From an uncultured Sphingomonadaceae bacterium (GTDB lineage: Bacteria > Pseudomonadota > Alphaproteobacteria > Sphingomonadales > Sphingomonadaceae), in the NCBI GenBank assembly GCA_947499255.1, contig CANMNF010000001.1:930001-994000 (forward strand): DNA of 64,000 bases, written 5' to 3'. Below the pieces are notes generated by a model. The model worked only from the letters and a program-made list of their open reading frames with translations, did no database searches and was not told where the DNA came from. Position numbers and translations under genes: made by a program. Positions 1 through 48,839 of the stretch are shown here, in pieces. The stretch's first letter is position 1; every line of letters begins with the position of its first letter.

Positions 1-2013
1 GGTAATTTCCAGTTCGAGCCGTGATGGATCAACACCTGCCTTTGCAATCGCTCCTGCTACGATTGCGGGAAATTCGGTCTTGGCAAATTGCAGCGGTGAA
101 ACATTCACCGAAACGTTGATATTGGCTGGCCAGCGGCTCAAATCCTTACAGGCTTGATACAGCGCCCACTCGCCAATTTCGCAAATCAGGCCCGATTCCT
201 CTGCAATCGAGATAAAGTGATTTGGTGAGACACGCCCGCGCATAGGATGCTGCCAACGCAACAGCGCTTCGAACCCGGTGATTGTCTCTGTCGCAGTGTC
301 GACATGCGGTTGATAGACAAGGCTCAGCTCATTGCGGGCAATAGCATCGCGCAGATCGCTTTCAATTTCAGCGCGCGCTTCGGCATCGGCGTGCAAATCT
401 TCGGCATAAAAATGATACCGCCCGCGCCCGGCATCCTTCGCTGCGTAAAGCGCAAGATCGGCGTTGCGGATCAGAACTTCATTGCTTTCACCATCCTCGG
501 GCGTGCGCGTAATTCCAATCGATGCGCCGATCACCACGCGTTTGCCATCAATGGTGAAAGGTTGGGAAAGGACCGCGATAATTGTCTCTGCCAGCGATTT
601 GAGCGCCGCATCATCAACGCGGCCGGGCAAAATGATCTTGAACTCATCACCGCCAAGCCGCCCAACACGGCCCAAATTGCCCACCGCCGCTTCAAGCCGA
701 CGCGCGACCTGCACCAGCAAAGCATCACCAGCGGGGTGACCCATCGTGTCATTGACCCTCTTAAAACGGTCAAGATCAAGCAACATGATCACGCAGGCGC
801 GATTGGCTTCGATCCGGCCAGCGAGGATCTTTTCCAGCACCTGCGACATCTGATGTCGATTTGCCAGGCCAGTGAGGGAATCATAGGCGGCAAGTCGCGA
901 AGCGCGCTGTTGGCTCCGACGGCTTTCTGTCAAATCTGCACCGGACCCGCGGAACCCGACGAAATTATCGAAATTGTCGAAATAGGCGCGCCCTGAAATT
1001 GACCACCAAAGCTCCCGATCTCCAATCGCAGCGCGCAGAGGCAGCTCGGTAAAGGCGCTGCAGGACGACAGATGGAAATTGAGCGTACGCTGACTTTCCG
1101 CGCCCGTCGCTTCAAGGTCAAAAAGGACGGTGAACGGCTGACCGCACAGCTCATCTGCCTTTACGCCCATCGTTTGCGCAATCGGCGCAGAGATATAAGT
1201 TAGCAGTCCGCGGCGATCTGTTTCCCAGAACCAACCTTGCCGCGTTTCTTCATAATCGCTCAGGATTTCGCTAGCCCGGGTTTGCAGGCGGGCGCGCACT
1301 TCGTGGTCGCGATCCTCCTTTTGATCGATGCGGAATTGTTCAATCGACACCAACAGCGCCACGATCACTGCAATGCCCAGCGCCACAACGCCAGCGAGCG
1401 AGCCTTGTTCAAGAACAACGGCATACCAAACCGCCATCTGGCCAGCGAACATCACCCCGGGATGGCGGCGCAGATACACCGCCGCAATCATACTCACCAA
1501 CAGCATGAAGGCGATCGCTCCGTCCCACCCAAGCGAACCCTGTACTGCCCATTGTGTCATTGCTGTTCCAAAGAAGCCCAGCGGCACAATGACAAAAGCA
1601 GCCACGCCAATAGCGCGGCCTAACCGCTTGCGTTCATGGACGTAAGGATGAAGAAAATTTCCACCCAGAAGCGCGATAATGGCAAAACCGAAGTGGCCTG
1701 CAAGCATGTCCGGCGGACTTTGCTGTGCGGCAACCATCGCGCCTATTATCGAAACCGCCATAGCGATGATGAGGTAAAGGCAGCGGGCTGGAAATAACTG
1801 CCGATCAGGATATTGGGCATGGTCCTGCATCAGCTGCAAACTGTTGCGCAAGGCGCGGCGTTTTAGGCCGGATCGGCGGTCTGGTAATTTGGGGCGATCA
1901 CCTGGCGTCAGATCATGCTGAGGCGGCGTAGAATCGCGCACGTCTTCTTTGCCCCGCGACAACGCTCCGCAATCGGCAGAATCTGCCTGCATCTTCGTAT
2001 GGGTCCCAACCAT
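1..2013 (-). CDS. Membrane PAS-GGDEF-EAL protein (3' end outside window)
   Basis: The frame is open through the window edge, so the C-terminus is missing. About six hydrophobic segments lie between residues 79 and 227. They are followed by a PAS-like region (about 240-350), a GGDEF domain with an intact RLGGDEF at 452-458, and the start of an EAL domain with the FEALLRW motif (EAL at 582-584). Family knowledge predicts an inner-membrane diguanylate cyclase and/or c-di-GMP phosphodiesterase. An RxxD inhibitory site is not seen at its usual place before GGDEF. The start at 2013 is an ATG without a clear Shine-Dalgarno, and 1992 is an alternative. It is divergent from the ferredoxin-NADP reductase gene. 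Which of the two activities dominates cannot be judged from the visible part. Confidence 0.9.
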   Translation of the reverse strand, partial: MVGTHTKMQADSADCGALSRGKEDVRDSTPPQHDLTPGDRPKLPDRRSGLKRRALRNSLQLMQDHAQYPDRQLFPARCLYLIIAMAVSIIGAMVAAQQSPPDMLAGHFGFAIIALLGGNFLHPYVHERKRLGRAIGVAAFVIVPLGFFGTAMTQWAVQGSLGWDGAIAFMLLVSMIAAVYLRRHPGVMFAGQMAVWYAVVLEQGSLAGVVALGIAVIVALLVSIEQFRIDQKEDRDHEVRARLQTRASEILSDYEETRQGWFWETDRRGLLTYISAPIAQTMGVKADELCGQPFTVLFDLEATGAESQRTLNFHLSSCSAFTELPLRAAIGDRELWWSISGRAYFDNFDNFVGFRGSGADLTESRRSQQRASRLAAYDSLTGLANRHQMSQVLEKILAGRIEANRACVIMLLDLDRFKRVNDTMGHPAGDALLVQVARRLEAAVGNLGRVGRLGGDEFKIILPGRVDDAALKSLAETIIAVLSQPFTIDGKRVVIGASIGITRTPEDGESNEVLIRNADLALYAAKDAGRGRYHFYAEDLHADAEARAEIESDLRDAIARNELSLVYQPHVDTATETITGFEALLRWQHPMRGRVSPNHFISIAEESGLICEIGEWALYQACKDLSRWPANINVSVNVSPLQFAKTEFPAIVAGAIAKAGVDPSRLELEIT

Positions 2014-2167
2014 GCTGCACAATGTGCCCAAATGCCTTTTAAAAAGGGTAAATTCCTGGGCGTTTTTGCGTAGTAAAATCTGCGCATGAAACAGCGCGCT
2101 GCCTTTGCGTGACGATGCGAAGCGGGTAAGCTTGCAAAACACAGCATCGAAAGAGGCCCGAAAGCCT

Positions 2168-3484
2168 ATGCGCCACATTGCGATCGTCGGTTCAGGCCCG
2201 GCGGGTTATTACACAGCCGAAGCTGCGCAAAAAACGTGGGGGCGCGATGTCGCAATCGATGTTTTTGACATATTACCAGTGCCTTATGGCCTTATCCGGA
2301 CAGGCGTGGCCCCCGATCACCAATCGATAAAAGGCGTTGCGCGCCGTTATGAAAAAACCGCACTGAATGACAATGTGCGCTTTATCGGCAATGTCGCGAT
2401 TGGCCGCGATATTACTGTCGAAACACTGCGCGAATTGTATGATGCAATAGTATTGGCGACCGGCGCGCCGCGTGATCGCGATCTTGGTATACCAGGCGCG
2501 GATCGTGTTAATGTATTCGGCAGCGCGGCCTTTGTGGGATGGTATAATGGGCACCCGGAATTTGCCGATCTGGCGCCTGATCTGTCCGGCTCCACCGCTA
2601 TTGTCATCGGCATGGGAAATGTTGCGCTGGATGTGGCGCGTATTCTGGCCAAATCACCGGCAGAATTTGCTGGCAGCGATATCGTTGGCCATGCGCTCGA
2701 CACGCTCAAAGCCTCCAAAATCGAACGGATTGTCCTGCTGGGGCGGCGCGGGGCGCATCAGATCATGATGACGCCCAAAGAGCTGGGGGAACTGGGCCAT
2801 CTGGAACGCGCCTCCCCCCATGTGGCAAAAAGCGATCTGCCCGATGCTGCGGACGATGCCATGTTAGAGCCGGGCCTGCGAAAATCGGTCAATCTGCTGC
2901 GTGATTTTGCAGCGACGCCTGAACACATCCGTGCGGAAAAGCCGATTGGGATCGAATTTGCTTTTTGCGCGCAGCCGATTGAGCTTATCGGTGATGAAAA
3001 GGTGCAGGAAATCGCGATTGAGCGTACCGAAGTTGTCAAAGGCCGCGCGGTCGGCACGGGCGAGATCAGCACCCTGCCCGCTCACCTTGTGATCAGTTGC
3101 ATTGGCTATCGCACCAGCCCTATTCCCGGTGTCCCGTTTGATGAACGCGCAGGCCGCTTCGCCAGTGACGAGGGGCGTATTTTGCCCGGCATGTATTGCG
3201 TCGGCTGGGCAAGGCGCGGCCCGTCAGGCACTATCGGCACGAACCGCCCCGATGGGCAACGCATCGTTGCAATGATTGCCGCGGATATGGAAGCGGGCAT
3301 TCTTGGCCCCGCCAGCAAAGAAGGCAGGCCCGGCTTCGATACATTCGCTGAGCAACACGACCTCGATATCATCACCTTCCGCGATTGGAAGAAAATCGAA
3401 GATGCCGAAAACGCCGCTGCACGCGATGGCGCCCCGCGGGAGAAATTCGTCGATATCGAGGCGATGATAAAAGCGCGGGATTAG
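2168..3484 (+). CDS. Ferredoxin--NADP+ reductase, adrenodoxin-reductase type
   Basis: A 438-aa cytoplasmic flavoprotein predicted to move electrons between NADPH and ferredoxin. The N-terminus has the FAD dinucleotide-binding motif GSGPAG at 8-13. A second nucleotide-binding motif, VIGMGN, lies at about 146-151 for NADP. The PYGLIRTGVAPDH stretch and the C-terminal GWARRGPSGTIGTN block are typical of the FprA/adrenodoxin reductase family. The chosen ATG has an AAAGAGG ribosome-binding site 12 bases upstream; a longer in-frame start at 2105 lacks one. The stop overlaps the convergent acyltransferase stop by four bases. Confidence 0.9.
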   Translation: MRHIAIVGSGPAGYYTAEAAQKTWGRDVAIDVFDILPVPYGLIRTGVAPDHQSIKGVARRYEKTALNDNVRFIGNVAIGRDITVETLRELYDAIVLATGAPRDRDLGIPGADRVNVFGSAAFVGWYNGHPEFADLAPDLSGSTAIVIGMGNVALDVARILAKSPAEFAGSDIVGHALDTLKASKIERIVLLGRRGAHQIMMTPKELGELGHLERASPHVAKSDLPDAADDAMLEPGLRKSVNLLRDFAATPEHIRAEKPIGIEFAFCAQPIELIGDEKVQEIAIERTEVVKGRAVGTGEISTLPAHLVISCIGYRTSPIPGVPFDERAGRFASDEGRILPGMYCVGWARRGPSGTIGTNRPDGQRIVAMIAADMEAGILGPASKEGRPGFDTFAEQHDLDIITFRDWKKIEDAENAAARDGAPREKFVDIEAMIKARD

Positions 3485-4554
3485 GTTAGGTGCGGCGCAG
3501 GATTGTTCGTGCTGGCCAAAACGGATCCATCGCGAAGTTTAATCTGTCTATCACGCTTATGCCGCCACAAATTGATCGGTTCATCAATCCAACGGCCGAC
3601 CACAAATGCAATCATCACAAGAACAATGTAAACACCAATCTCAAAGGCGAGCGTGACCTCGCTCAACCGCATCGCAATGACGACCGGGGCGTGCAAAGCA
3701 TAAAGCGGATATGACAGCGTTCCCAGCGCTCTGGTGAAAGCGCCGCCTGTAACATTGGTCGCAATGATGCAAATCATTGGCAGCACGGTGAACAATAAGG
3801 CCAGTTCATAAATAGCCGCGCGGGTTGAGTTTGAGCCAATAGCGAACGGGTCCATCGTCACAAATATGGTCAAAGCTGCGATGATTGGCATACCCAGACT
3901 GCCAAAACCGGTGCCAAAGCTGGGCCGGAGGCGATAAATTAGCACTCCTGCGAAGAAGCCGAAGCAAGCCCGCACAATGCCGAACAGATAGCGTTCACGC
4001 TGCCAACCAAAATCCAGATCTCCATGGTAGAGCGCTGTGCCAGCGGTGATCACTCCGGTTGCAACGACGATTTTGACAAGAACCGGCATGGTCAGTTTTT
4101 CAAAAATGCGCAAATGCAGATAGTTGGCAACCAACTCATAAGAAATGGACCATTGCGTACCGTTCAGCGGGAACGCCAAGGTTGAGCTTGTGAGGAACGG
4201 GATTAGCGAAAGCTGACTGATGGCGGCCAGCGAGAAATCAACAGCGCCGGTTGGTTCAAATTCCGTTGGGCCAATTATAAAAACGATAAGGCCAAGCAAC
4301 GCGCCCAAGAATAACATGGGATAAAGCCGGAAGACCCGGCGCGTCATGTACGTCTTCACATCCATGCCATCGGCAAAGCGCCGCTCATAAACGAGCGCGA
4401 GCACAAATCCGCTCAACATGAAAAAGAGATCGACCGCCAAATGGCCGTGCGCAACAAGGCGTTCAAAGTAGACAGTGCCATGGCATAGCATGACCATAAT
4501 CGCGGCAATACCGCGCGTTCCATCAATGGCGATAAGTCTGTTGGCCCCCGTCAT
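3481..4554 (-). CDS. Acyltransferase 3 family membrane protein
   Basis: A 357-aa polytopic membrane protein of the OafA/YrhL acyltransferase-3 family. These proteins O-acylate surface sugars or other envelope molecules; the acceptor here is unknown. It opens with the family's typical start, IDGTRGIAAIMVMLCH, in which the conserved His ends the first helix, followed by LAVDLFFMLSGFVLA. About ten hydrophobic segments follow. There is no C-terminal SGNH domain, which some relatives carry. The base composition looks slightly more AT-rich than the neighbours by eye. It stands alone between convergent fpr and dnaN. Confidence 0.88.
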   Translation of the reverse strand: MTGANRLIAIDGTRGIAAIMVMLCHGTVYFERLVAHGHLAVDLFFMLSGFVLALVYERRFADGMDVKTYMTRRVFRLYPMLFLGALLGLIVFIIGPTEFEPTGAVDFSLAAISQLSLIPFLTSSTLAFPLNGTQWSISYELVANYLHLRIFEKLTMPVLVKIVVATGVITAGTALYHGDLDFGWQRERYLFGIVRACFGFFAGVLIYRLRPSFGTGFGSLGMPIIAALTIFVTMDPFAIGSNSTRAAIYELALLFTVLPMICIIATNVTGGAFTRALGTLSYPLYALHAPVVIAMRLSEVTLAFEIGVYIVLVMIAFVVGRWIDEPINLWRHKRDRQIKLRDGSVLASTNNPAPHLT

Positions 4555-46164: not shown

Positions 46165-47400
46165 ATGACTGACACGACCCCCAATTCCTTCCGCAATCAA
46201 CCCGATGATCGCGGCCATTTTGGTGCCTATGGCGGACGCTATGTGGCCGAAACGCTGATGCCGCTAATCCTCGATCTGGAGCGCGAATATCGCGCAGCGC
46301 AAGCCGATCCGGCGTTCAAGGCGCAGTTCGATGATCTGCTTGAGCATTATGTCGGCCGCCCTTCCCCGCTCTATTATGCAGAGCGGTTGACGCAGGATAT
46401 CCGGCAAACCGCGCCAGAGGGCAAAGGCGCGCAGGTCTGGTTCAAACGTGATGAGCTGAACCACACCGGCGCGCACAAGATCAACAATTGTATCGGGCAA
46501 ATCCTGCTGGCGATGCGCATGGGCAAAACGCGCATTATCGCTGAGACCGGCGCGGGCCAGCATGGCGTTGCCACCGCCACGGTGTGCGCGCGGTTCGGCC
46601 TGCCTTGCGTGATCTATATGGGCGCAACCGATGTTGAGCGGCAGGCCCCCAATGTCTTCCGCATGAAGCTGCTGGGCGCAGAAGTCGTGCCCGTCACCTC
46701 CGGCGCGGCGACACTGAAAGATGCCATGAATGAAGGGCTGCGCGATTGGGTCGCCAATGTGCATGACACGTTCTACATCATCGGCACGGCGGCGGGCCCG
46801 CATCCTTATCCAGAGCTGGTGCGCGATTTCCAATCCGTGATCGGCAAAGAAGCGCGCGAACAGATGCTGAAACGCACCGGCAAGTTGCCCGATATCCTGG
46901 TGGCAGCGATTGGCGGCGGTTCCAACGCGATCGGCCTGTTCCACCCGTTTCTCGATGATCGTGATGTGAAGATGCTGGGCGTAGAAGCGGCTGGCCACGG
47001 GCTGGATAAACAACACGCGGCATCGCTGGCAGGCGGCTTCCCCGGCGTGCTCCACGGCAACAAGACATACCTGCTGCAAGACGAAGACGGCCAGATCGCC
47101 GAAGCGCATTCGATCAGCGCCGGGTTGGACTATCCCGGCATCGGGCCAGAACACGCATGGCTGAAAGAGACAGGCCGCGTGGAATATACCGCGGTAACGG
47201 ATACTGAAGCTTTGGACGCGTTCCAGCTGCTATGCCGGACCGAGGGGATTATTCCCGCGCTTGAGCCGAGCCACGCGATTGCGGCGGTTGTCGAGCGGGC
47301 GAAGGTGATGGACCGTGATCAGATCGTGCTGATGAATTTGTGCGGTCGCGGGGATAAGGACATCTTTACCGTCGCGGAGGCGCTTGGCGTGGAGATGTGA
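46165..47400 (+). CDS. trpB: Tryptophan synthase beta chain
   Basis: A 411-aa PLP enzyme joining indole and serine. The N-terminus [15 protein letters not shown] is typical, PLP-binding Lys105 lies in HTGAHKINN, and the phosphate-binding [11 protein letters not shown] and the [10 protein letters not shown] end follow. A longer start at 46123 has no family support. Its stop overlaps the start of a 55-aa membrane peptide gene. Confidence 0.97.
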
Positions 47401-47564
47401 GGAAGCGCTCCTTTCTTGATGACTTTAGCACAGCAAAGAATGAATGGCACGATCCTAAGTTTAGACGCGGCTTCTGGATCGGTTTTCGGCCTCATCTTTT
47501 TGCAATACCGATCTATATCTTGTCGGGTGCCGCTTTTGGCTTCTTAGTCTCGAAATTATTCTGA
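47397..47564 (+). CDS. Small single-pass membrane protein, 55 aa
   Basis: A GTG-started frame overlaps the trpB stop (GTGA) and encodes [21 protein letters not shown], then a basic [12 protein letters not shown] stretch and a hydrophobic segment of about 20 residues ending VSKLF. The composition (charged N-half, one membrane helix near the end) and the 4-base coupling argue for a real gene. I do not recognise the family. No similar short gene is usual between trpB and trpA. Confidence 0.6.
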
Positions 47565-47595
47565 TGCTGGATCGTTTTTCTACAATTGTCGCAAA

Positions 47596-47635
47596 ATAGC
47601 CCTCTCTCCTTTAGGGGAGAGGGTTAGGAGAGGGG
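47596..47635. repeat. Left terminal inverted repeat of the DUF559 cassette
   Basis: A 40-base arm; its last ten bases AGGAGAGGGG lie two bases before the TTG start and form the ribosome-binding site of the DUF559 gene. Confidence 0.8.
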
Positions 47636-47637
47636 CC

Positions 47638-48069
47638 TTGCGCAACGCCAAACTCACCGAACGCGCCCGCAAAATGCGCCGCGAAATGACGCCGCCGGAA
47701 CAACGCCTCTGGATGGAACTGCGCGCCAACCGCTTCCGCAACACCAAATTTCGCCGCCAGAAAGTGATCGGCCAATACATCGCCGATTTTGCCGCAAACG
47801 ACCCCAAAATCGTGATCGAACTTGACGGGGATAGCCATGCAAGTCAGGCGGATTATGACGCGGCTCGCGCCGCTTTTCTCGAAGGCGAAGGCTACCGGGT
47901 GGTGCGGTTCGCAAACCGCGATGTGATGACGAATTTGGATGGTGTTTTGACTGTGATTGCTGGTGTTATTGATGAATTGAGAGGGTGCTCCCCTCCCCCA
48001 ACCCCCTCCCCTGAAGGTGAGGGGACTATGTCTTCTCCCTCACCCCTTCATAAGAGCCGCAGCCAATGA
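47638..48069 (+). CDS. DUF559 domain endonuclease-like protein
   Basis: A 143-aa protein of the DUF559 family, related to very-short-patch and PD-(D/E)XK endonucleases. LTERARKMRREMTPPEQRLW leads to the core: Asp50 in QYIADF and Glu61-Leu-Asp63-Gly with His67 in IELDGDSH. All of these are intact. The start is TTG with AGGAG from the repeat arm. The last 25 residues (PPPTPSPEGEG onward) are translated from the right arm and beyond. The stop overlaps the trpA start (ATGA). No methyltransferase partner is present, so a restriction role is not implied. Confidence 0.85.
   Translation: MRNAKLTERARKMRREMTPPEQRLWMELRANRFRNTKFRRQKVIGQYIADFAANDPKIVIELDGDSHASQADYDAARAAFLEGEGYRVVRFANRDVMTNLDGVLTVIAGVIDELRGCSPPPTPSPEGEGTMSSPSPLHKSRSQ
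47990..48029. repeat. Right terminal inverted repeat of the DUF559 cassette
   Basis: A 40-base inverted copy of the left arm, translated as the Pro/Ser/Glu/Gly tail of DUF559. Confidence 0.8.
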
Positions 48070-48839
48070 CCCGCCTCTCCTCTGCCTTCGCCACCCCCGC
48101 TCTCGTCGCCTTTATCACCGCTGGCGATGGTGACACGGCTGCAAACCTTGACGCCCTCGTCCAAGGCGGCGCGGATGTGATTGAGCTGGGTATGCCGTTC
48201 ACTGATCCGATGGCGGATGGTCCGGCCATTCAGGAGGCGAATTTGCGCAGCCTTGGCAAAGGCACCACCACTGCCGATGTCTTTCAAATCGCCAAGGATT
48301 TCCGCGCGCGGCACCCTGATACGCCGCTCGTCCTTATGGGCTATGCCAATCCGATGATCCGGCGCGGGCCGGAGTGGTTTGCGCAATCTTGCGAAGCTGC
48401 TGGCGTCGATGGCGTTATCTGCGTCGATATTCCGCCTGAGGAAGACGATGATCTTGGGCCAGCTCTGCGTGCCAAAGGGATTGCGCCCATTCGCCTCGCT
48501 ACCCCGACCACCGATGCCAAGCGCCTGCCGCAAGTGCTCGAAGGGTCGAGCGGGTTTCTCTATTATGTCTCGGTCGCCGGGATCACCGGGATGCAGCAGG
48601 CCGCCCAAGCCAGCATTGAAGATGCTGTCGCCAAGCTCAAAGCCGCCACTGATCTGCCTGTCGCGGTCGGCTTTGGCGTGCGCACGCCGGAGCAAGCCGC
48701 AGAAATCGCCAAGGTTGCAGACGGCGTTGTCGTAGGCTCCGCGCTCGTCGCTTTGGTGAAAGAGCACGGGGAAAACGCAGCGGAACATCTGCAATCGCTC
48801 ACCAAGAGCCTTGCCGATGCCGTCCTTAATGCGCGATAG
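48066..48839 (+). CDS. trpA: Tryptophan synthase alpha chain
   Basis: A 257-aa TIM-barrel enzyme releasing indole from indole-3-glycerol phosphate. Catalytic Glu40 and Asp51 lie in VIELGMPFTDPMADGP. The phosphate-binding VGFGVRTPEQA is near the end. ATG 48066 overlaps the DUF559 stop, so trpA translation is now coupled to the cassette gene. It is followed ten bases later by accD. Confidence 0.96.
   Translation: MTRLSSAFATPALVAFITAGDGDTAANLDALVQGGADVIELGMPFTDPMADGPAIQEANLRSLGKGTTTADVFQIAKDFRARHPDTPLVLMGYANPMIRRGPEWFAQSCEAAGVDGVICVDIPPEEDDDLGPALRAKGIAPIRLATPTTDAKRLPQVLEGSSGFLYYVSVAGITGMQQAAQASIEDAVAKLKAATDLPVAVGFGVRTPEQAAEIAKVADGVVVGSALVALVKEHGENAAEHLQSLTKSLADAVLNAR

Follow-up and report, generated by a model that had tools for sequence, protein, structure and literature searches.

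The described system closest to the one presented here is the REPtron, a RAYT (TnpA-REP) gene with flanking REPs, and with it come the REPIN and BIME arrays (available text of PMC3733652; see also PMC2817692 and PMC3116915). In such systems one small gene lies between inverted palindromes, the palindromes are also dispersed singly and as doublets, and the repeats can persist without the gene; in each of these respects the system described below is similar. A second point of comparison is the TM/PIT motif, a sequence capable of intrastrand triplex formation that is present in 23 copies in Escherichia coli MG1655 (Holder et al. 2015, PMC4666352). As far as its accessible text goes, that paper reports no mobility gene near TM motifs and leaves their origin open, and neither 'DUF559' nor 'endonuclease' occurs there. 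A repeat of the form CCCTCTCCCxxGGGAGAGGG is on record from Enterobacter 638 (PMC2869309, accessible sections). On the side of the enzyme, a DUF559 gene of Thermosynechococcus has already been termed EDxHD (PMC9403480), and YcjD has been placed in the PD-(D/E)XK superfamily, with a YcjD profile that finds Vsr (PMC1189080), both according to the accessible parts of these papers. In the available text of the literature on DUF559, ycjD, RAYT, Vsr and triplex/PIT sequences, mostly open-access articles and few preprints, we found no link between DUF559 and palindromic repeats.

The locus reported here lies in the trp operon of an uncultured Sphingomonadaceae bacterium, in a window (the whole stretch of DNA that was analysed) of 64,000 nucleotides; its direct neighbours are trpB and trpA (Table 1). 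A preliminary description of this DNA had claimed that the ends of the unit align as inverted copies over 40 bases without gaps, 33 of them matched. This is borne out, and its coordinates are correct: the two arms are 83% complementary (33/40), whereas in 300 dinucleotide shuffles of positions 47400-48200 the best inverted match of 40-nt arms, at least 200 nt apart, ranged from 21 to 26. The arms are also palindromic, as had been said, each holding a hairpin plus a head, the term we use for the half-repeat on the gene side of each hairpin. The claim that they enclose one DUF559 gene and nothing else stands for the domain, which lies between both arms, but not for the reading frame: the frame runs through the 3' arm, which is translated as a C-terminal tail, to the start of trpA, its TGA stop and the trpA ATG overlapping as ATGA, and the gene is thus not fully enclosed. 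The window protein is a DUF559 protein (E 2.5e-37), and no transposase is found among the reading frames of the unit.

Table 1. Features of the trpB-trpA interval carrying the DUF559 unit; positions are those of the window.
Feature	Position	Strand	Remarks
trpB stop (47398-47400), then short reading frame	47398..47564	+	frame also present in the spacer of G015 (L040), without the unit
5' arm	47596..47635	+	hairpin 47600-47623; head 47625-47635, facing the gene
DUF559 nuclease ORF	47638..48069	+	143 aa; TTG start 2 bases past the 5' arm
DUF559 domain	47650-47964	+	Pfam match, between both arms
3' arm	47990..48029	+	head 47990-48001; hairpin 48003-48024
trpA	48066..48839	+	start codon overlapped by the DUF559 stop

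The window arms are degenerate, and are not exact matches to the TM/PIT consensus pattern CCCTCNCCC-N3-6-GGGNGAGGG-N3-GGGNGAGGG. As single-stranded DNA they fold only slightly better than shuffles (z -0.9 to -2.2, Watson-Crick folding only). A structured RNA was considered and dropped, positions 47400-48200 giving no Rfam match up to E 1. We regard the 434-bp unit as probably one copy of a widespread bacterial 'nuclease-REP unit', ordered hairpin, head, DUF559 gene, head, hairpin, which would be an analogue of the REPtron with a small nuclease replacing the Y1 transposase. It differs from the REPtron in that its gene encodes a PD-(D/E)XK/EDxHD nuclease and no HUH/Y1 transposase, and in that its palindromes carry a G-rich head that could form a third strand; by eye, the arms read have the G-rich head and no consistent GTAG or CGTC tag at the foot of the palindrome.

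The protein has the fold of a nuclease. Asp50, Glu61, Asp63 and His67, which the preliminary description had listed as kept, are all present, in columns that are 96-98% conserved among 136 DUF559 domains (a set without L060, which has an internal stop). The alignments drew on 35 of the 44 listed ranges (A1) and on 57 of the 79 usable ranges plus the window (A2), L267 being unusable. A profile of 35 domains finds PDB entries 3HRL (1.4e-41), which is ngo0050 of Neisseria gonorrhoeae, and 3R3P (2e-4), which is the homing endonuclease I-Bth0305I; Foldseek ranks the same two first with the AlphaFold model (pLDDT 87), 3R3P at E 4.7e-4, and these two matches to 3R3P place the protein in the EDxHD catalytic fold. 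The likeness to I-Bth0305I lies in the fold of the catalytic domain and in the acidic and His residues; the difference is that I-Bth0305I is a multi-domain enzyme with a target of nearly 60 bp (PMC3943268, accessible text), whereas the DUF559 protein here stands alone, with about 115 residues, between palindromes. In NCBIfam the sole match is the DUF559 model, under its cut-off. As to a role in defence or restriction-modification, PADLOC gives only a marginal match (E 0.0097), and the direct neighbours of the gene are trpB and trpA.

Membership of the Vsr superfamily raises a main alternative, a VsrA-like role in repair, in which DUF559 would be a Vsr-type host repair nuclease and the palindromes terminators or chance neighbours gathering at gene edges. 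Caulobacter VsrA is itself a DUF559 protein, causing an SOS response when a cytosine methylase is missing, and is a proposed VSP repair enzyme (PMC12907096, in the part of the text available); Vsr proper (1VSR) is a weak fold match to our model (Foldseek rank 45, TM 0.47 of query), and Vsr-type repair differs in acting at methylase motifs. On the evidence given in the following paragraphs we consider this explanation distinctly unlikely as an account of the units, although repair and spread could both be true of one enzyme.

The genome from which the window comes contains four DUF559 genes. Three are strong Pfam matches and each lies between headed palindromes, so that the genome search for arm copies that had been proposed finds such arms at three of the four genes. 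The palindromes are different for each: CCCTTCCC-type at L001, CCCTCTCC/CCCCTCCC in the window, and CCCCTCCCG-type, with several extra copies, at L003. The fourth gene, a weaker match, has no palindromes nearby. Within the genus 40 genomes were searched, and 38 of them have a DUF559 gene of this weaker-scoring type (assigned by score); the two without it, G006 and G047, are 74% and 70% complete. Palindromes were absent at all 6 examined loci of the weaker type (both sides 0, one side 0, none 6). This type counts in favour of the host-repair explanation. Against it, the arms of the strong genes differ from gene to gene within one genome, and copies without a gene occur elsewhere.

Such gene-less copies are found in the valS gene of the same genome (L028, G000:C3:307000-311500, ORF 1008-4049, minus strand, 1013 aa), which has in-frame palindromes at two places, translated as peptides such as PLPLTGGAGGG...PTPDPSRKREG. 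At the first, an in-frame pair of about 81 bp, hairpin-head-gap-head-hairpin, amounts to the unit minus its gene; among 29 congener rows 2 share this pair, 3 have other inserts, 23 have none, and 1 (L358) was misread, being in the wrong frame in this comparison. At the second, a single hairpin with its head stands beside another palindrome, and congeners L348 and L355 have the full pair there. In four congeners (G009:C69, G050:C133, G013:C2 and G016:C23) we noted paired DUF559 genes that run in opposite directions, their starts 6.4-7.8 kb apart.

The arrangement extends well beyond this genus. Of 396 genomes belonging to the window's phylum, Pseudomonadota, 129 have Pfam DUF559. For the flanks we took the 110 top-scoring loci among the matches listed, all of them strong, and counted as a strong palindrome any stem of at least 8 with at most 1 mismatch within 250 bp of the gene; loci under 3200 bases were dropped (1 of 110 in the phylum, 2 of 27 in the genus and 1 of 29 for trpA), and the DUF559 loci had been selected for carrying that gene. 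Strong palindromes occur on both sides of the gene at 70 of the 109 phylum loci, on one side at 38 and on neither at 1, and their density, at 1.57 per locus in the 100-bp bin nearest the gene, falls to 0.06-0.17 in the bins from 500 bp on. The genus loci are similar (n=25: both 14, one 10, none 1). Control loci give lower counts, with windows and settings that vary slightly among the DUF559/trpA, Y1 and GIY-YIG sets: trpA, n=28, both 1, one 4, none 23, the trp unit of G016 being among the 28; GIY-YIG nucleases, n=25, both 4, one 4, none 17; Y1 transposases, n=24, both 2, one 8, none 14. Compared as inverted copies, the two flanks of one locus beat all 109 shuffles at 71 of 109 loci; against the flanks of other loci, a harder null since arms resemble each other, the own flank matched above the 99% level at 41 of 109.

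A further 80 named loci from one collection scan, which were sampled not at random but as the best matches to a single peptide pattern, have hosts that include Rickettsiales, Chloroflexi, Nitrospirales, an Oscillospiraceae MAG, Neisseria and Acinetobacter. Of these, 5 were left out for short flanks; within about 300 bp the remaining 75 have palindromes on both sides in 48 cases, on one side in 24 and on neither in 3 (L271, L284, L308), some of those counted being of other kinds, not C/T-rich (for example on one side at L285, L304 and L332).

The heads of the hairpins are directional. Of the 109 phylum loci, 51 have a clearly headed hairpin within 320 bp of the gene on each side and 88 have one on at least one side, as against 3 and 29 for segments further out. 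The head of the nearest one points toward the gene on 115 of 139 sides, that of the second-nearest away from it on 37 of 48, and in the further-out control segments 10 of 32 point inward; these counts give a core unit of hairpin-head-gene-head-hairpin, often set in a longer alternating array. In general, strong DUF559 genes are flanked by REP-like palindromes, each typically made of a C/T-rich hairpin with a G-rich head facing the gene. The preferred head direction speaks against the host-repair explanation. Other patterns sought in these data were given up. A tally of loops yielded no clear rule for fixed left and right arm types. DUF559 as a plasmid or phage gene was set aside, with matches in 42 plasmid records out of 72,556 and in 3 phage records out of 50,697. 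Nor did GIY-YIG nucleases prove to be paired with CGTC-type repeats (7 of 25 GIY-YIG loci vs 8 of 23 trpA loci). Most of the GIY-YIG loci examined are not palindrome-flanked; the short GIY-YIG genes at L406, L429 and L434 are, by palindromes that belong to another type (e.g. CCTCATGCT...AGCATGAGG), and these few are perhaps a parallel case.

The commonest arm is CCCTCTCCC-loop-GGGAGAGGG-NNN-GGGGTGAGGG, which is the same as the TM/PIT motif (PMC4666352); we equate CCCTCTCCC-type arms with the Enterobacter 638 repeat too, and units of this type in other genomes carry close variants of the TM/PIT consensus. The likeness to TM/PIT is one of shared sequence in CCCTCTCCC-type arms; the difference is that no associated mobility gene is reported in the available text on TM/PIT, whereas here there is a DUF559 gene. 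In MG1655 itself, only about 170 bp separate TM motif no. 9 of the published table (1351204-1351239; PMC4666352, accessible text) from ycjD (1351407-1351760), which is a DUF559 gene, and in another strain a better-preserved TM motif overlaps the 3' end of ycjD.

Across the phylum, TM repeats go with DUF559 genes and not with Y1 genes. The pattern counted, CCTCTCCC-loop-GGGAGAGG-N2-6-GGTGAGG, covers one subtype only; it occurs in 95 of 396 genomes, in up to 172 copies, and read backwards it is absent among the matches listed. It is present in 77 of 129 genomes with DUF559 and in 18 of 267 without (OR 20.5), and the link holds when stratified by host family, a coarse correction for ancestry (OR 13.9, p 8e-10). 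Terminator function, as the host-repair explanation supposes for the palindromes, leaves this genome-wide association unexplained. The exceptions are the 18 genomes with TM copies and no DUF559, one of them with 78, and the 52 of 129 DUF559 genomes without the counted subtype. Genome G284, which has the genus code of G264 and G379, combines 78 triplex-type palindromes with no DUF559 match at E<=1e-8; possibly it has lost the gene and kept the repeats.

These counts also bear on the idea that Y1 (RAYT/IS200-type) transposases act in trans to move the arms, as they do for classical REPs, with DUF559 incidental. Y1 genes can be flanked by terminal inverted repeats sharing GGGGWSAS (Di Nocera et al., PMC3733652, in its accessible part), and the head GGGGTGAG fits that motif. 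Y1_Tnp is found in 172 of 396 genomes, with an odds ratio for TM of only 1.10 (p 0.72), while the DUF559-TM association holds both in genomes without Y1 (OR 17) and in those with it (OR 29). TM-like hairpins are present at 67 of 109 DUF559 loci, 0 of 25 GIY-YIG loci and 0 of 24 Y1 loci, the last being the best-scoring Y1 matches, among which RAYTs, expected to score lower, may be under-represented. With no Y1_Tnp match at E<=1e-5 in the window's own genome as well, transposition in trans by Y1 enzymes seems very improbable.

Doublets of TM repeats have no uniform orientation, the tallies disagreeing. In the 100 copies listed for G264, 14 doublets have their heads out, 1 has them in and 1 has both in the same direction; in the 50 copies listed for G430 the corresponding counts are 11, 2 and 1; and in the published table of 23 MG1655 copies, heads are in for 4 doublets and out for 1. 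In the E. coli fabI-sapF interval (L118-L124) the ycjD gene and an efflux operon, named eef (accessible text of PMC12817139), are alternative contents, and coverage of the 1401-bp MG1655 stretch that contains ycjD reaches 80% or more in 3333 of 5426 genomes. This interval was rejected as a clean empty-site test because the strains examined that lack ycjD carry the efflux operon there.

Evidence of movement comes from other sites: in one clear pair the units end at hairpins, units are present or absent at orthologous positions, and gene-less and reduced derivatives occur. Two copies in genome G347 (L183/L190), 68% alike, lose homology within 3 bases of both outer hairpins, and their flanks are unrelated. 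Of the five same-genome pairs displayed, this alone has both ends at hairpins: in L104/L132 homology starts at a hairpin and overruns the other by about 19 bases, in L176/L184 it starts at one hairpin and ends inside the gene, and the displays of L153/L166 and L113/L182 do not place both ends at hairpins. That arms mark the ends of homology, even in one clear pair, is a further point against the host-repair explanation. By eye, no target duplication was seen at L183/L190 or at the valS inserts; in this, and in having no transposase in the unit, the arrangement differs from an insertion sequence.

Orthologous sites were read at two places. At the first, next to L183 in the genus of G347, 30 loci were read of 116 relatives matching the first flank. 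The unit (A) is present in 10, and in 12 there is an insert that is longer and has different arms; in 4 empty loci the two flanks meet directly, 2 have other DNA, and 2 have the unit without a right flank in the locus. The empty alleles also miss tens of bases beyond the hairpins. Of the longer inserts, 8 of 12 give a BLAST match to the unit, and that of G090 coincides with a Pfam DUF559 location (C1:876490-876816). At this site (L205-L234) unit A and the longer insert with other arms fill one gap in different species and have a right flank in common, at or near AACGGAGAGAGTCTTCG, which looks like the replacement of one unit by the other. At the second site, with 30 loci read of 79 relatives matching the second flank, the spacer is short and empty in 16, holds a full-sized unit in 8 and a reduced copy in 4, and has other DNA in 2; the reduced copies comprise L263, with both arms and most of the gene gone, L252 and L258, which are partial, and L249, a single hairpin. 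The shape of a mobile unit lacking a transposase, which the preliminary description had recognised, is upheld by these empty sites, by the other copies, by the absence of a Y1 match from the own genome and by the G347 pair ending at hairpins; and with empty sites and other copies in existence, the unit is not a gene fixed everywhere at one place.

The same data could be produced by unstable, recombinogenic palindromes that are moved by host processes such as replication slippage and hairpin nucleases, a trapped DUF559 gene being copied along as a passenger. More rearrangement is reported around E. coli TM motifs without any mobility gene (Holder et al. 2015, PMC4666352, as far as its available text shows), and reduced derivatives do occur. 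On the other hand the active-site residues are 96-98% conserved, and the presence of TM repeats follows that of DUF559 within host families. Also, no gene-sized inward pair under 1 kb was found among the listed copies (100 of 172 and 50 of 92) of two TM-rich genomes, a result of little weight because no DUF559 unit appeared as a strict pair among those copies either. All in all we think the passenger explanation unlikely.

At the trp site the unit is probably no newcomer. We examined 24 congener trpA loci, 23 of which have a readable trpB-trpA spacer (L031, with no trpB in the locus, was left out). The comparison of filled and empty spacers that had been suggested gives 1 filled, in G016 (L048), where the unit comes right after trpB, and 22 without a unit, these spacers having been read and showing no DUF559 match nearby. 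In G015 (L040) a 166-nt spacer has the window's short frame followed by trpA, and the unit is absent. In G188, of another genus of the family, the unit lies in the same spacer, its arms clean and matching. The trp units of G000 (the window's genome), G016 and G188—three genomes, two genera—form one clade with support 0.994. A recent insertion into the trp operon is not supported in view of this single clade; from the tree, the trp unit is most simply read as an old, vertically inherited resident that has been lost repeatedly, the less simple alternative being repeated insertion at this site by one lineage of units. The trpB-trpA spacers of the congeners (L030-L053) range from 5 nt to 1.4 kb, with varied small frames and other palindromes, and operon gaps of this kind look like hot spots for small insertions.

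Arms were also compared with the proteins between them. An oriented arm could be defined at 125 of the 136 loci, 11 being left out. Within host families, protein and arm similarity are correlated in f1 (rho 0.60), f16 (0.61) and f14 (0.40), with 0 of 300 permutations as good in each; in f52 and f9, 1 and 18 of 300 were as good. For 33 same-genome pairs the correlation is 0.53. Across families there is no significant excess over within-family permutation (68 of 300 as good), and in only 17 of 49 loci are the arms nearer those of the closest cross-family protein than those of same-genome paralogues; co-evolution of arm and protein across families thus found no support. The matching within families may be due in part to descent. 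A specific pairing of arm and protein is accordingly plausible over a short range, but over a long range it is unproven.

In the mechanism that we propose, the DUF559 protein would recognise palindrome and head, perhaps when these fold into a hairpin or an intrastrand triplex where the fork exposes single-stranded DNA, and would nick or cut at the folded palindrome or the head. Repair would then copy the unit, or a gene-less arm pair, into a new or palindrome-bearing site, much as in homing; gene-less pairs and single palindromes would be the non-autonomous products. Such homing-like, nuclease-driven spread fits the kinship of the fold to a homing endonuclease and the occurrence of empty and filled alleles; recognition, cutting and copying are inferred. 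The nuclease-REP unit as a whole, spread by its nuclease included, we hold to be the probable explanation. A stronger form, that there exists a separate, multi-phylum class of mobile element in which a lone EDxHD/Vsr-like nuclease spreads triplex-forming palindromes by cutting their folded form and having repair copy them, we put at about an even chance. What is new here is the DUF559-palindrome unit as a REPtron-like variant, with a real chance that it is a separate kind of its own.

Because the boxed arrangement recurs in so many bacteria, the DUF559 nuclease is a good suspect for the spreading of short palindromic repeats. TM repeats, those of E. coli K-12 included, gain a concrete and testable suspect for their origin, and a role is proposed for many proteins now annotated as 'DUF559 domain-containing', among which there may be a candidate for a small hairpin- or triplex-directed nuclease. 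If the lone-nuclease class is real, it would supply the mover that TM/PIT repeats and part of the 'orphan' REPs have lacked, with RIME-like rhizobial repeats perhaps among the latter. More broadly, the finding suggests that short palindromic elements may be driven by nucleases instead of transposases.
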